A stretch of 20,403 bases of DNA from Bacteroidales bacterium (GTDB taxonomy: Bacteria; Bacteroidota; Bacteroidia; Bacteroidales; JALTDM01): assembly GCA_026996635.1 (NCBI GenBank), contig JALWKH010000145.1, forward strand, positions 1 through 20,403. The letters are read 5' to 3'. The notes under the pieces are model-generated. The model saw nothing but the letters and a program-made list of their open reading frames with translations, was not told the origin of the DNA and ran no database searches. How positions within the stretch are numbered: the stretch's first letter is position 1; each line of letters begins with the position of its first letter. A program made the translations under genes and the position numbers. Of this stretch, positions 3,448 to 17,481 are shown piece by piece.

Positions 3448-4346
3448 GGATAAATAAAGAAACAATAAAAAATACCAAACTGGTAAAAGTTGCCAAAACA
3501 AAGAGGTTTTCCATACTTTCCGGTAAAACAATTGCAGAGGTTTTATCTTTCTTTTTTAAAAGCCTTACAGACGGTAATATTACAACAAGAGCAGCTGCTA
3601 TTGCATACAATTTGTTTTTGTCAATTTTTCCGGGATTAATATTCTTGTTTACACTCATTCCTTATTTGCCCATACCTGATTTGGAAAACCAAGTAATGTC
3701 ACTTTTGAGAGAATTTATGCCGGATTATTCATACAAGACATTCGAAACTTTGATAATGGATATTATCAGTAAGCAAAGAGGTGAGCTTCTGTCTTTCAGT
3801 GCTTTGACTACATTGTATTTTGCCACTAACGGAATAAGCAGTTTTATATCGGCATTTCAAAATTCAATTTCGTTTGACAAGGGTGAAAATTGGTTTAAAA
3901 AGAGATTGAACTCCTTTATTTTGGCTGCAATTGTTACTTTGCTTTTGGCTGTTGCAACTATTCTTTTGCTTTTTACCAATGTTGCGGTGAACTTACTTGT
4001 AGAATACGGCTTGTTGAGTGATAACATTATTGTTTATCTTATTTTAATAGCAAAGTGGGTCATTGTGTTTTTGCTTTTTTATTTTGCTTTAGACTTTTTG
4101 TACTACTACGGTACTCCGAAAAAAGAACGCAAATGGAGGTTTTTCTCCATCGGAACTTTTTTCTCTACCGTGATGACAATGCTTGTGTCGTGGGGATTTT
4201 CATTTTATGTAAACAATTTCGGACATTACAATAAATTTTACGGGTCACTTGGGGCGATTATCGTGTTGCTTTTGTGGCTTTATTTTGTTTCGCTTACTAT
4301 TCTTACCGGATTTGAAATGAACAGGAGTATAGATGTTAAGAATTAG
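3444..4346 (+). CDS. YihY/BrkB family inner-membrane protein
   Basis: A 300-residue polytopic protein with about six membrane helices. It carries the family signature 'ITTRAAAIAYNLFLSIFPGLIFL' region after a short cytoplasmic N-terminus, the Gly/Ser-rich middle 'TLYFATNGISSFISAF', and the C-terminal 'YGSLGAIIVLLLWLYF...GFEMN' block. The family was long mis-annotated as ribonuclease BN; its real role is unsettled, and transport has been suggested. Its start overlaps the aminotransferase stop and its end overlaps the barrel gene by 14 nt, so it belongs to the same transcript. Confidence 0.92.
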   Translation: MRINKETIKNTKLVKVAKTKRFSILSGKTIAEVLSFFFKSLTDGNITTRAAAIAYNLFLSIFPGLIFLFTLIPYLPIPDLENQVMSLLREFMPDYSYKTFETLIMDIISKQRGELLSFSALTTLYFATNGISSFISAFQNSISFDKGENWFKKRLNSFILAAIVTLLLAVATILLLFTNVAVNLLVEYGLLSDNIIVYLILIAKWVIVFLLFYFALDFLYYYGTPKKERKWRFFSIGTFFSTVMTMLVSWGFSFYVNNFGHYNKFYGSLGAIIVLLLWLYFVSLTILTGFEMNRSIDVKN

Positions 4347-5778
4347 TGTTATATTATTGTGTTTGTGGTTGTTGAGCGTAAAACTTTTTTCGCAGGCGGA
4401 GTTTCCCGTTCGTGATAATTTGTCGCATTATTACGAGTTAAAATATTTGCAAAAAACCGATTCACTTTTTGACGAAAGCATAAGACCTTATTATACAAAT
4501 TATCTTACCGATACGCTGAAAAAAAACTTTTTGTTATTGCCTGCCATTGGAAGTTATGCAGAGTTTGCAAAAGGGGATTACCCTATGTTTAACAATTATT
4601 TCGGAGGAATGTTTTTTTACGGTCATAAAAAGTTTTCGGGGTGGGTTTTGCCGTATTTTTATTACTCTCAATCGGAACTGTATCGCCATTCTTTGCCGGG
4701 ATATATAAGCGGTTTTTATTCCAAATATAATTTTACAGGCAATAGCGTTTATTTTGCAGATGTATTGTGGGAAGCAGAATATAATGCTGCTAAATTTATC
4801 AGGTTTTACGCAGGAAAAGGTAAATTGTTTTTGGGAGAAGGGAATCGTAGTTTGTGGATTTCGGGCAGCGGTGCTCCATACAATTATTTCAGGGGAGTGG
4901 TAGATGTTTGGCATATAAAGTATGTATGGCAAGTGGGAAGCGGATTGGACAGGGATTCTTTAGATTATGGTGTTAACACTAGGAGGCGCAAGTATTTTGC
5001 ACTGCATTATTTGGATTGGCAAGCTACCAAGTGGTTAAATGTCCAAATGTTTGAAACGGTGATTTGGGCACAATATTCCGAAAAATATAGAAGAGGGCTG
5101 GAGCCGGCTTATATAAATCCCATTGTCTTTTACAGACCTGTGGAGTTTGATATAGGTTCGTCCGATAATGTGATTATGGGTGGCGGTTTGGTCTTGAAGC
5201 CGGTAAAAGGGTTGTCGTTGTATTCACAGTTGGTTTTGGACGAGTTTAAAATAAGTGAAATCCGGGCAAAAAAAGGTTGGTGGGGAAATAAATTCGGCTT
5301 GCAAGCGGGTATAAAGTATTATTTGCCAAAAGCGTATTTTCTTGTGGAAGCAAATGCTGTAAGACCTTTTACATATTCGCACAATTTGTCCATAAGTAAT
5401 TACGGGATAGACAGGCAGCCGTTAGCACATCCTTCGGGTGCAAATTTCAGGGAATTGATTTTTGACAGCCGATTTGAAGTAGCGGATAACTTTTATATTA
5501 GTCTGTTTGGCGGGTATATGCAAAAGGGGTTGAATACAGACAGTGTTAACTACGGCGGTAATATTTATTGGTCTTACGACTATTTAAGGCGTGAATACGG
5601 CAATAGTTTATTGTCGGGCGTTTTGTTTTCGGAGTTTTATGGTGGCATTGGTGCCGGAAAGTTTGTGGGTAATGCTTTGGAAATTTTCGGTAGGGCAGGT
5701 TACAAAAGTATTTCAGTGGGTAGCAACTTGCAAAAAGGATTTTATTTCGAGGCAGGGGTGAGGTCTGTTTTTTTGTAA
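4333..5778 (+). CDS. Wzi/RemB-like outer-membrane beta-barrel protein
   Basis: A 481-residue exported protein with a signal peptide ending LFSQ near residue 20. The body is aromatic-rich alternating beta strands, and the chain ends in a barrel-type strand 'GFYFEAGVRSVFL'. Conserved blocks recalled from the capsule-assembly Wzi family and the Flavobacterium gliding protein RemB are present: 'GKGKLFLGEGNRSLWIS', 'HYLDWQATKWLNVQMFE', 'INPIVFYRPVEF', 'GSSDNVIMGG', 'KGWWGNKFGLQAG' and 'VRPFTYSH...QPLAHPSGANF'. Wzi is a lectin that anchors capsule at the cell surface; RemB affects gliding. This is the last gene of the five-gene run and overlaps the BrkB-like gene by 14 nt. Its last 19 codons recur in diverged form at 6524-6580, beyond the RAYT gene. 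Confidence 0.83.
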   Translation: MLRISVILLCLWLLSVKLFSQAEFPVRDNLSHYYELKYLQKTDSLFDESIRPYYTNYLTDTLKKNFLLLPAIGSYAEFAKGDYPMFNNYFGGMFFYGHKKFSGWVLPYFYYSQSELYRHSLPGYISGFYSKYNFTGNSVYFADVLWEAEYNAAKFIRFYAGKGKLFLGEGNRSLWISGSGAPYNYFRGVVDVWHIKYVWQVGSGLDRDSLDYGVNTRRRKYFALHYLDWQATKWLNVQMFETVIWAQYSEKYRRGLEPAYINPIVFYRPVEFDIGSSDNVIMGGGLVLKPVKGLSLYSQLVLDEFKISEIRAKKGWWGNKFGLQAGIKYYLPKAYFLVEANAVRPFTYSHNLSISNYGIDRQPLAHPSGANFRELIFDSRFEVADNFYISLFGGYMQKGLNTDSVNYGGNIYWSYDYLRREYGNSLLSGVLFSEFYGGIGAGKFVGNALEIFGRAGYKSISVGSNLQKGFYFEAGVRSVFL

Positions 5779-5794
5779 GGAGAGAGGTTTTTAT

Positions 5795-5865
5795 CACACG
5801 ATAGGGATCGTGCGGTAGCGTGGAAAATAAAAAAAACTTTGCTACCTCACGAATCTTTCGTGAGG
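5795..5865. repeat. Inverted pair of REP-like palindromes (BIME-like)
   Basis: The first unit (5795-5820) is CACGAT-AGGG-ATCGTG followed by CGGTAGCG. The second (5841-5866) is the reverse orientation, GCTACC leading into a 10-bp perfect stem ACCTCACGAA/TTCGTGAGGT with a TCT loop. The GGTAGC and GCTACC tails face each other 21 nt apart and can also pair. This tail-to-tail arrangement of two units is the organisation known from bacterial interspersed mosaic elements. Confidence 0.75.
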
Positions 5866-5876
5866 TTAGAATTTGT

Positions 5877-5891
5877 AACGATTGTATCGTT
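5877..5891. repeat. Short perfect palindrome upstream of RAYT
   Basis: AACGAT-TGT-ATCGTT, a 6-bp stem with a 3-nt loop, 24 nt before the RAYT ATG. The core CGAT/ATCG resembles the flanking REP-like units but lacks the GGTAGCG tail. It may be a third unit or an operator-like site in the RAYT leader. Confidence 0.55.
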
Positions 5892-5915
5892 TATTAGAAT
5901 AAATTTATTTATAAG

Positions 5916-6464
5916 ATGAGTAGGAACTATAAGTTTTATAATCCTTCAGGTATTTATTTCGTTACTTTTTCTGTCGTAGAATGGATTGATGTTTTTACGA
6001 GAATTGAATACAAGGATATTATTGTTGATAGTTTGCATTATTCTCAAAATAACAAAGGAATGGAGATATTTGCTTGGTGTATTATGACAAATCATATTCA
6101 TTTGATATTTAGAAGCATAAGTGGAAAAAAGCCTGAACAAATTTTAGGTGAGTTAAAGCGTTTTACAAGTAAGGCTTTGGTAAAATCTATTTTGAATAAT
6201 CCGCAAGAAAGCAGAAAAGATTGGATGATTAAAGCTTTTAAAAGAAATGCCGAAAGGACTTCTAATGTGAGAAATTTTCAATTTTGGCAACACCATAATC
6301 ATCCTATAGAATTGTGGAGTAGTGAGGTTATGGATGAGAAAGTAAATTACATTCATAATAATCCGGTTAAAGCCGGATTTGTGAGAAATCCAGAGGATTA
6401 TTTATATAGTAGTGCAATAGATTATAGCGGTGGGAAAGGGTTGTTGGAAGTAACTGTTATTTGA
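5916..6464 (+). CDS. REP-associated tyrosine transposase (RAYT, Y1 HUH family)
   Basis: A 182-residue single-domain Y1_Tnp protein, a usual length for bacterial RAYTs. Motifs: an N-terminal 'GIYFVTFSVVEW' strand, then 'AWCIMTNHIHLIF' with the metal-binding H60-x-H62 of the HUH site. The C-terminal helix is 'KVNYIHNNPVKAGFV', where Tyr145 is the best candidate nucleophile, followed by 'PEDYLYSSA'. RAYTs are single-strand endonucleases related to IS200/IS605 TnpA. They are thought to act on REP palindromes and are usually single-copy and domesticated. Palindromes with a GTAG-containing tail lie on both sides of this gene, which fits that role. No frameshift or stop is present and the key residues are intact, so the protein looks functional. 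Activity on these particular repeats is inference. Confidence 0.92.
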   Translation: MSRNYKFYNPSGIYFVTFSVVEWIDVFTRIEYKDIIVDSLHYSQNNKGMEIFAWCIMTNHIHLIFRSISGKKPEQILGELKRFTSKALVKSILNNPQESRKDWMIKAFKRNAERTSNVRNFQFWQHHNHPIELWSSEVMDEKVNYIHNNPVKAGFVRNPEDYLYSSAIDYSGGKGLLEVTVI

Positions 6465-6490
6465 AATGTTTTGTCAGATAAAATTTGCTT

Positions 6491-6518
6491 TACCACACGA
6501 TAGAAATCGTGCGGTAGC
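6491..6518. repeat. REP-like palindrome downstream of RAYT
   Basis: An 11-bp stem TACCACACGAT/ATCGTGCGGTA (6491-6501 with 6506-6516) with an AGAA loop, followed by the shared GCGG tail. The single mismatch is A:C on this strand but G:T wobble on the other, so the hairpin is more stable on the minus strand. It lies 27 nt after the RAYT stop. Confidence 0.78.
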
Positions 6519-6523
6519 GGTGT

Positions 6524-6580
6524 TGCAACTTACAAAAAGGATTTTATTTCGAGATAGGGGTGAGGTCGGTGTTTTTGTAG
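6524..6580 (+). pseudogene. Orphan copy of the 3' end of the Wzi/RemB-like gene
   Basis: Read in one frame, this stretch gives CNLQKGFYFEIGVRSVFL and a TAG stop. The barrel gene ends SNLQKGFYFEAGVRSVFL and TAA. Of the 18 sense codons, three differ silently and two change the amino acid (Ser to Cys, Ala to Ile). There is no start codon and the preceding bases belong to a palindrome, so this is a remnant and not a gene. The high share of silent changes suggests that the copy, or its source, spent time under selection as a real gene end. Confidence 0.8.
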
Positions 6581-6592
6581 GAGCAGGGTTTC

Positions 6593-6620
6593 ACCACACG
6601 ATGGAATCGTACGGCAGCGG
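6593..6620. repeat. REP-like palindrome abutting the dxr stop
   Basis: ACGAT-GGA-ATCGT with the tail ACGGCAGCGG, a diverged third copy of the unit at 5795 and 6491. It ends 3 nt before the dxr stop codon, between convergent genes. It belongs to the second copy of the ~95-bp direct repeat. Confidence 0.7.
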
Positions 6621-6623
6621 ATT

Positions 6624-7793
6624 TTATTTTCCTTTTATAATTTCTTGTGCCACTTTTCTTGCTTCCTTGTCGGTTTGGTAAAGGTCTTCAAGAGTCGGAT
6701 TTAATACGAAGTTTACTTTTTGCATTGTTTGTTCAATGATTTCGGGCATTTCGGTAAACTTAATCTTATCGTGCAAGAAAGCATCAACGGCAATTTCATT
6801 CGCAGCATTGAGGATACAAGGCATATTTCCGCCTTTTTGCAAAGCATCAAATGCCAGTTGCAAGTTGCGGAAAACTTTTGTGTCGGGTTTTTCGAATGTG
6901 AGTTCCGGATAATTCAAAAAATCGAATCTCGGTAATTGTGATTTTATTCTTTGCGGGTATGAAAAAGCATAAAGTATTGGCAGTTTCATATCGGGTAAAC
7001 CGAGCTGGGCTTTTATGCTTCCGTCCTCAAATTGCACGAGTGAGTGGATAATTGATTGCGGATGTATGATTACTTCAATCTTTTCGGGCGGAATATCAAA
7101 CAGCCATCTTGCTTCTATTACTTCAAGTCCTTTGTTCATAAGTGAAGCTGAGTCAATAGTGATTTTTGCCCCCATATTCCAATTAGGGTGTTTCAATGCT
7201 TCAGCTTTGGTTTTTGTTTTCAATTCGTCAAAGGTCATACCACGGAAAGGTCCTCCTGATGCAGTGAGTATTATTTTTTCGATATTGTTGTGCCTTTCGC
7301 CTTCAATACATTGAAAAATGGCGGAGTGTTCGGAATCAACGGGGATAATCGATACATTGTATTCTTTGGCAAGCGACATAATTATATTGCCTGCTACAAC
7401 AAGGGTTTCTTTGTTGGCAAGGGCAATGTTTTTGCCGTGTTTTATGGCATTCACCGTAGGTTTTAGTCCGGCAAAGCCTACCATCGCGGTAAGCACCATA
7501 TCTATTTCGGGGAGCGTAACTATTTCGGAAATGGCATCTGTGCCAGACAGAACATTTATTCCAAAAGGTGATAATTCTTCGCTTACAGTCTGGTATTGAG
7601 TTTCGTCGGCTATTACAACATATTGAGGTTTGAATTTTTTTGCTTGTGAAATAAGCAAATCTGCATTAGTTCCCGCAGTAAGCACTACAGGGCGAAAAAT
7701 ATCACTGTGCTGTTCTATTATTTCAAGCGCTTGTTTTCCGATTGAGCCTGTGGATCCGAGTATGGCTATATTTTTCACGGAGTTGGTCTTCAT
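6624..7793 (-). CDS. dxr: 1-deoxy-D-xylulose 5-phosphate reductoisomerase
   Basis: A 389-residue protein of normal length, converting DXP to MEP with NADPH in the non-mevalonate isoprenoid pathway. The NADPH-binding GSTGSIG is at 13-19 and 'ANKETLVVAG' near 126-135. The metal-binding 'PVDSEHSAIFQ' has Asp153 and Glu155, and 'TASGGPFR' is near 178-184. The substrate loop is 'HPNWNMGAKITIDSASLMNKGLEVIEA' with Asn220, Lys221 and the third metal ligand Glu224. 'HPQSIIHSLVQFEDGS' and 'LGLPDMKLPI' follow. All catalytic residues are intact. The gene is convergent with the barrel gene, with the RAYT unit between them, and has its own promoter upstream. Confidence 0.98.
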   Translation of the reverse strand: MKTNSVKNIAILGSTGSIGKQALEIIEQHSDIFRPVVLTAGTNADLLISQAKKFKPQYVVIADETQYQTVSEELSPFGINVLSGTDAISEIVTLPEIDMVLTAMVGFAGLKPTVNAIKHGKNIALANKETLVVAGNIIMSLAKEYNVSIIPVDSEHSAIFQCIEGERHNNIEKIILTASGGPFRGMTFDELKTKTKAEALKHPNWNMGAKITIDSASLMNKGLEVIEARWLFDIPPEKIEVIIHPQSIIHSLVQFEDGSIKAQLGLPDMKLPILYAFSYPQRIKSQLPRFDFLNYPELTFEKPDTKVFRNLQLAFDALQKGGNMPCILNAANEIAVDAFLHDKIKFTEMPEIIEQTMQKVNFVLNPTLEDLYQTDKEARKVAQEIIKGK

Positions 7794-17361: not shown

Positions 17362-17421
17362 CACCGCCTTAAAAGACGGTGCTATTCATTACGTCAACGC
17401 TACTGCACGAATCTTTCATGC
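17362..17421. repeat. Composite palindrome, second copy with the REP-like unit inverted
   Basis: CACCGCCTTAAAAGACGGTG and the following GCTATTCAT repeat the unit at 9320 exactly over 26 nt. It is followed by CGCTACTGCACGAA-TCT-TTCATGC (17398-17421), a REP-like unit in the opposite orientation to the one at 9348. The loop GAATCTTTC is shared with the unit at 5851. Confidence 0.7.
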
Positions 17422-17435
17422 TGGGGCTGTTTTTT

Positions 17436-17450
17436 TGCGATTCAATCGCA
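17436..17450. repeat. Short perfect palindrome
   Basis: TGCGAT-TCA-ATCGCA, a 6-bp stem and 3-nt loop after a run of T, within the second repeat hub. It has the ATCG core of the REP-like family but no GTAG tail. Confidence 0.5.
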
Positions 17451-17461
17451 TGAATTTATAA

Positions 17462-17481
17462 CCACACGATACAATCGTGCG
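17462..17481. repeat. REP-like unit without tail
   Basis: CCACACGAT-ACA-ATCGTGCG is the same hairpin as at 6493, here followed by AATTTG in place of GTAGCG. Loss of the tail suggests a decayed copy. Confidence 0.65.

Follow-up and report, generated by a model that had tools for sequence, protein, structure and literature searches.

How did a gene for a REP-associated tyrosine transposase (RAYT; REP, repetitive extragenic palindrome) come to lie between two copies of the 3' end of its upstream neighbour? The question is posed by contig JALWKH010000145.1 (C145) of Bacteroidales bacterium GCA_026996635.1, the 20,403 nucleotides of which were analyzed at full length and are referred to as the window in the following. 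The genome comprises 2.2 Mb on 461 contigs and is 88.7% complete. A preceding sequence-only reading of the locus had noted that a gene tail together with its palindrome recurs in diverged form behind the RAYT, and this was borne out. A gap-free direct repeat of 58 nt (D1) occupies positions 5720-5777 and 6522-6579 with 52 of 58 bases identical (90%), and the likeness runs on through the REP over 101 alignment columns (84%, E = 1.4e-24). The explanation that we prefer, to which we assign a probability of roughly 0.55, is that a RAYT-bearing end of the gene was joined ahead of the end that this gene originally had, at or beside a GGTAGC that is identical to the foot of a REP.

The two gene ends and the empty site of a sister species

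Tail copy 1 forms the end of a host gene on the plus strand (4333-5778) that encodes a protein of 481 amino acids and closes with TAA. The tail itself comprises 19 codons including the stop (5722-5778). It is followed, on the same strand, by REP1 (5790-5820), a palindrome with GGTAGC behind it, a left-end hairpin (5841-5865), a second, weak hairpin (5877-5891), the RAYT gene (5916-6464), REP2 (6489-6519, with GGTAGC at 6513-6518), tail copy 2 (6524-6580) and REP3 (6590-6619). Beyond these lies the convergent gene dxr (6624-7793, minus strand). Both tails have a REP palindrome behind them, the RAYT that separates them is intact, and the site holds three REPs of one type, not two, besides the other hairpin at the left end. 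The tails were delimited by comparison of repeats and codons, and the longest run of identical bases that they share measures 21 nt. Copy 2 lacks a start and extends from TGC to TAG (CNLQKGFYFEIGVRSVFL-stop). The codon table agrees with the sequence-only reading in that five sense codons are changed, three of them silently, and that TAA in one copy stands opposite TAG in the other. Scans of the window for tRNAs, Rfam families and tandem repeats returned nothing relevant.

The same site is found without a RAYT in a sister species of the same genus (G001, a metagenome assembly, record JALTDM010000205.1), whose orthologue of the host protein also consists of 481 amino acids and is 89% identical. 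There, the host gene carries one tail, not two (two tails in a relative without RAYT would have counted against insertion or capture according to the sequence-only reading), followed by one REP and then directly by dxr, and neither a RAYT nor any other Y1 transposase was found in this 82% complete genome. Between stop and REP the sister has about 40 nt more (locus L035, 4289-4344), with ATGAGGT repeats flanking the segment 40 nt apart, and both copies in the window are without it. As to which version of the tail sits at the empty site, the answer is mixed. The sister tail is of the copy-2 type at four bases and of the copy-1 type at three, it alternates along its length as copy-1, copy-2, copy-1 and copy-2 type, and it is not the product of a single crossover between the two copies now present, the kind of event by which, in the sequence-only reading, the RAYT might be lost with no damage to the gene.

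This alternation bears on a scenario in which the RAYT and both tails are older than the species split and the sister has lost the RAYT and one tail by recombination. Such an age would be in line with the divergence between the two tails (7 of 57 bases), which is only somewhat lower than the values separating the species (10 of 57 and 9 of 57). However, simple excision gives one copy switch, and the sister tail needs three if the present differences already existed. Furthermore, the absence of the approximately 40 nt from both window copies fits a deletion common to both, although it would be uninformative if the segment had been inserted in the sister. A loss in the sister thus appears improbable.

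Across the 57 tail bases compared three ways, 13 differ, four of them in copy 1 alone, three in copy 2 alone and six in the sister alone, and at none are all three sequences different. The four changes confined to copy 1 are all silent, the change of the stop from TAG to TAA among them, whereas the three confined to copy 2 are all replacements (Ser to Cys, and two bases that turn Ala into Ile; Fisher p = 0.029 for the split between the copies). This distribution argues that copy 1 is under selection as the working gene end, and it points to copy 2 as unconstrained at least lately. Copy 2 has the appearance of a remnant of the end that the gene first had, an assignment that also draws on the sister site. 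TAG would be the older stop if the state shared by copy 2 and the sister is ancestral. The earlier suggestion that both copies still look like functional ends finds no support once the changes are polarized by the sister. Among the REPs, REP3 (for which folding is no better than in shuffled sequences) and the single REP of the sister have a common 3-nt loop and TACGG, while REP1 and REP2, examined by repeat and folding comparison, have a common 4-nt loop and TGCGG. The left flank of REP1 (AGGTTTTTA) equals that in the sister, and REP1 may therefore be the native REP altered by conversion with REP2.

The RAYT unit and its REPIN-like relatives

The gene between the tails had been labeled as a RAYT, and this is upheld by NCBIfam model NF047646 (REP_Tyr_transpos), which it matches with 103.8 bits against a cut-off of 80, while the score with the IS200/IS605 model NF033573 (22.9 bits) remains under the cut-off of 55. 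Its frame of 182 codons is intact, and the translation holds the HUH motif NHIH, FWQ and the tyrosine motif YIHNNP, as judged by eye against the table contained in the passages of PMC6006769. No solved structure matched by sequence at E 0.001.

The palindromes that flank the RAYT recur in the genome. Right palindromes occur 12 times in the genome under study (three at the RAYT site), five times in the sister and four times in a relative from the same family (G002), with no occurrence in reversed-pattern controls. Left hairpins, with up to two mismatches allowed, number 10, three and zero in the same genomes, again with none in the reversed-pattern controls of the genome under study. Some of the right palindromes are solitary. 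The genome also harbors short elements made up of three palindromes, namely CTAC with a hairpin, another hairpin in the middle, and on the right a palindrome that terminates in GGTAAC or a similar sequence. Seven distinct elements of this kind (83-89 bp) are listed, six from the genome under study (L045, L048, L061, L063, L064, L065) and one from the sister (L049).

The left-end hairpin at 5841-5865, detected by hairpin search and folding, has GCTAC before it and resembles the left end of these elements. The weak hairpin at 5877-5891 is the counterpart of their middle palindrome in both place and sequence (16 of 200 shuffles fold as well), and REP2 makes up the right end. Since the RAYT sits between the counterparts of the middle and the right palindrome, its unit and the short elements resemble each other at their ends. 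The unit extends from about 5841 to 6518 and leaves REP1, REP3 and both tails outside. These ends look as if the short elements were internal deletions of the unit or as if the unit were such an element that gained a gene. Another member of the same family resides in a different intergenic region of the window (17400-17481), with left and middle hairpins and right palindrome but with the right foot GGTAAC missing. Right palindromes are also carried by the sister and by G002, and no RAYT of this kind was found in either assembly (82-83% complete). Further Y1 transposases are encoded in the genome under study (L096 and L098, on contigs C129 and C1) and in G002 (L097), and Pfam Y1_Tnp fits these far better than it fits the RAYT.

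The orientation of the feet deserves attention. At REP1 and REP2 GTAG lies 3' of the palindrome on the plus strand, whereas canonical REPs have it on the 5' side. CTAC is found 5' of the palindrome on the other strand of REP1 and REP2 and also at the left hairpin. Foot variants exist, with GCAG in REP3 and GTAA in most of the short elements. Because of the 3' position of GTAG we term the latter REPIN-like (REPIN, REP doublet forming hairpins).

The host gene and its tail were then followed beyond this site. A "Wzi/RemB-like" label given to the gene product could not be confirmed, as no Pfam or NCBIfam family matched at E 0.001; homologues are present in 25 of 60 genomes, the one under study included. 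In the latter, the tail occurs only at the two places at the RAYT site (all 16 candidates scored). A search of 99 genomes, in many of which only nine first-look candidates were scored, retrieved only this locus with its two places and the gene of the sister, and the 21-nt run common to both tails had no exact match in viral contigs. A dispersed repeat family unrelated to the RAYT, which the sequence-only reading had named as an outcome to look for, thus finds no support in the genome itself, the 99 genomes searched or the viral contigs. The same searches speak to the idea that the tail is a passenger carried by this RAYT family inside its mobile unit. The tail does directly adjoin the right end of the RAYT, but there is no other copy in the genome and none in 97 other genomes (with the same limit on scored candidates) save the sister's own gene. 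The viral contigs lack the shared run, and the listed REPIN-like elements have ends like those of the RAYT unit without any tail. A passenger is hardly credible on this evidence.

A possible origin of the joint

At the joint, the right-end foot of the RAYT unit finishes at 6518 and the likeness to the gene tail sets in at 6522. The host gene contains a single GGTAGC (5719-5724), which lies beside the repeat start at 5720, marks the 5' edge of the duplicated tail and agrees in all six bases with the foot of REP2, the right end of the RAYT unit. It is one of four on the plus strand of the window, of which one lies at position 302 and one each in the foot of REP1 and that of REP2. From the two copies, the empty site, the copy-specific changes and the GGTAGC at the edge, all of them observed, we infer a joining step and its order. 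A RAYT unit would have stood behind a gene end made up of tail copy 1 plus REP1. The right end of this unit would then have been joined at or beside the GGTAGC that lies close to where the gene stops. The RAYT-bearing gene end would thereby have been set before the original, RAYT-less end, now represented by tail copy 2 and REP3, such that the gene retained a complete 3' end and the original tail, being outside the reading frame, began to decay. The second tail may have come from the sister chromosome, which would make it a duplication, or, slightly favored, from the allele of a diverged strain. In the latter case, recombination would have made use of homology on the left and of the short match to a REP foot on the right. 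The break was perhaps made by the transposase; ordinary repair would also suffice.

If a single duplication had given rise to both tails, more ageing would be expected in the neutral copy than in the working one. Four changes at 11.3 silent sites in copy 1 compare with three at 57 free sites in copy 2, and equal time is disfavored (likelihood-ratio p = 0.033; conditional binomial p = 0.017, rising to 0.047 if a transition bias of 4 is allowed for). With p values of about 0.02-0.05 from a test chosen post hoc, this weakly suggests that two alleles had parted before they were joined and that the second tail stems from a diverged allele.

A different order of events has to be weighed here. Tail and REP (about 100 nt) could have been duplicated in tandem first, as in REPIN clusters that are repeated with their flanks, and the RAYT unit could have inserted between the copies later. 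REPIN clusters adjoin RAYT genes in P. fluorescens SBW25 according to the passages of PMC3116915, and repeats of a flank plus REP bracket RAYTs elsewhere, for example over 75 nt at locus L068. A later insertion, however, needs luck, as the right end of the RAYT unit came to lie within a few bases of the second tail (6518 versus 6522). In addition, the copies aged unequally (p 0.02-0.05), and REP1 is like REP2 and unlike REP3 in loop and stem. We consider tandem duplication as the first step unlikely. The alternative formulated by the sequence-only reading, in which either a RAYT entered and brought a replacement tail with it or the tail was copied together with the REP, stands as an either/or, and the weak statistics and the REP types lean to RAYT entry.

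Several points weigh against the joining of a RAYT-bearing end to the original one. The comparison involves one sister genome, three sequences cannot fix the branching order, the counts are small and the Ala-to-Ile codon supplies two of the three changes in the downstream copy. Neither the silent-change test nor the GGTAGC match was fixed before the data had been seen. A clean crossover at GGTAGC would leave this motif directly before AACTT, but the actual joint has eight more bases (GGTGTTGC) that align only partly with the gene. The likeness of REP1 and REP2 may result from later conversion, with the sister-type left flank of REP1 as a case in point. There is no clear foreign tract, the divergence from the sister being 0.12-0.17 per 180 bases throughout; at third positions it amounts to 0.22-0.32 in the first 720 bases and 0.33-0.40 thereafter, without a step at the tail. 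Lastly, GTAG is situated 3' of the palindromes, so that guidance by GTAG cannot be taken as established at the RAYT site. In the passages of PMC8266576, single-stranded REPs are described as being cleaved at CT (in one system also at CA), with strand transfer in vitro. It is for that one system that GTAG was shown to direct where the enzyme acts, comparable trials with two further systems having been unsuccessful.

It is conceivable that the RAYT enzyme itself makes such joints by mistaking a GGTAGC that happens to occur in a host gene for the foot of a REP. Given the REP behind the gene, the enzyme would then handle the intervening stretch, here the gene tail, as a movable unit. The 3' position of GTAG led us to rate such activity lower, and in both respects it appears very doubtful. 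If true, RAYT units could enter gene ends, supply a spare 3' end and leave the gene intact. The occupied site, the empty sister site and the joint at a REP-foot sequence together offer a tangible example of DNA rearranged around a RAYT. They also suggest an idea that lends itself to testing, namely that a REP-foot sequence inside a gene can act as a joining point that duplicates the end of this gene.

Other RAYT loci and known systems

Repetition of a REP with its flank is ordinary at RAYTs, as becomes apparent from a count of direct repeats of at least 40 nt bracketing the RAYT within 600 nt, which are present at eight of 24 loci from relatives and at none of 26 control loci (Fisher p = 0.0014). 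With flanks of 1000 nt the count is 11 of 24 versus one of 26, and with 1500 nt it is 12 of 24 versus none of 26. The sets were obtained from 29 listed RAYT loci and 26 listed control loci (of 30, from the host-gene family) by dropping, without any trimming, those lacking full flanks. The control is imperfect in that its matches cover part of a gene and its flanks hold coding sequence; on the RAYT side, several loci originate from the same genome, some matches are fragments and several repeats are REP arrays.

A broader survey yielded 47 RAYT matches, 30 of them with loci (including the present one), and a direct repeat of at least 30 nt across the RAYT was seen in 16 of the 30, with up to six repeats listed per locus. 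Among these 30, duplication of a gene tail did not emerge as something that RAYT loci share, and no second case was established. Open reading frames of at least 80 codons with their 3' end in a repeat also exist at L067, L079, L086, L093 and L094. Judged from the coordinates, the frames at L067, L079, L093 and L094 belong to repeat arrays or overlap with other frames, and the repeat at L086 (109-305 and 2278-2473, 94%) comprises hairpins and, by eye, the 5' end of a RAYT-like frame, without a host tail. At locus L068, a further RAYT from the same taxonomic order has 75 nt of flank and REP on either side (1379-1452 and 2187-2261), with no coding sequence in them. Both copies begin with GTAG, but the RAYT of L068 is on the other strand and the other listed repeats do not begin in this way, which speaks against GTAG at the repeat edge as a rule. 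When 34 partly overlapping REP loci from G000, G001 and G002 (five from the window, four of these at the RAYT site) were compared with themselves, no duplication of tail plus REP was recognized by eye, coding content not having been checked; repeats of at least 40 nt were seen at L056, L061/L102, L064/L106 and L105.

In natural transformation, homology-facilitated illegitimate recombination works with a homologous stretch at one end and a short match of several bases at the opposite end. By analogy, such a process would join two alleles as observed, with the REP foot as the short match, and might apply to the present locus.

The closest known systems are the RAYT/TnpA_REP REPtrons. Subclass 2.6 of a survey of Y1 HuH enzymes features the signature NH[LIV]H, WQ and YIH[QN]NP, "atypical secondary structures" and Bacteroidetes hosts, as given in the passages of PMC6006769. 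Like these, our locus has a Y1 transposase with palindromes on its flanks of which the genome holds further copies, and NHIH, WQ and YIHNNP fit the signature by eye rather than on the basis of a tree. In contrast, our RAYT unit has a copy of a host gene's coding tail plus REP on each side, and the passages mention no such thing. The same is true for the passages of PMC3116915, PMC3733652 and PMC8266576, in which a host gene tail duplicated around a RAYT is not described; we do not claim that the arrangement is unreported. The second point of reference is provided by REPIN clusters in P. fluorescens that are repeated in tandem along with their flanks (Bertels and Rainey, 2011; passages of PMC3116915). 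Here as there, a REP and neighboring non-REP sequence are directly repeated near a RAYT. The differences are that the flank repeated here is the 3' end of a gene and that tail and REP, though repeated in the same direction (84%), are well diverged and have the RAYT unit in between. Repetition of a REP with its flank is known, and its occurrence with the coding end of a gene on both sides of a RAYT represents an unusual form.
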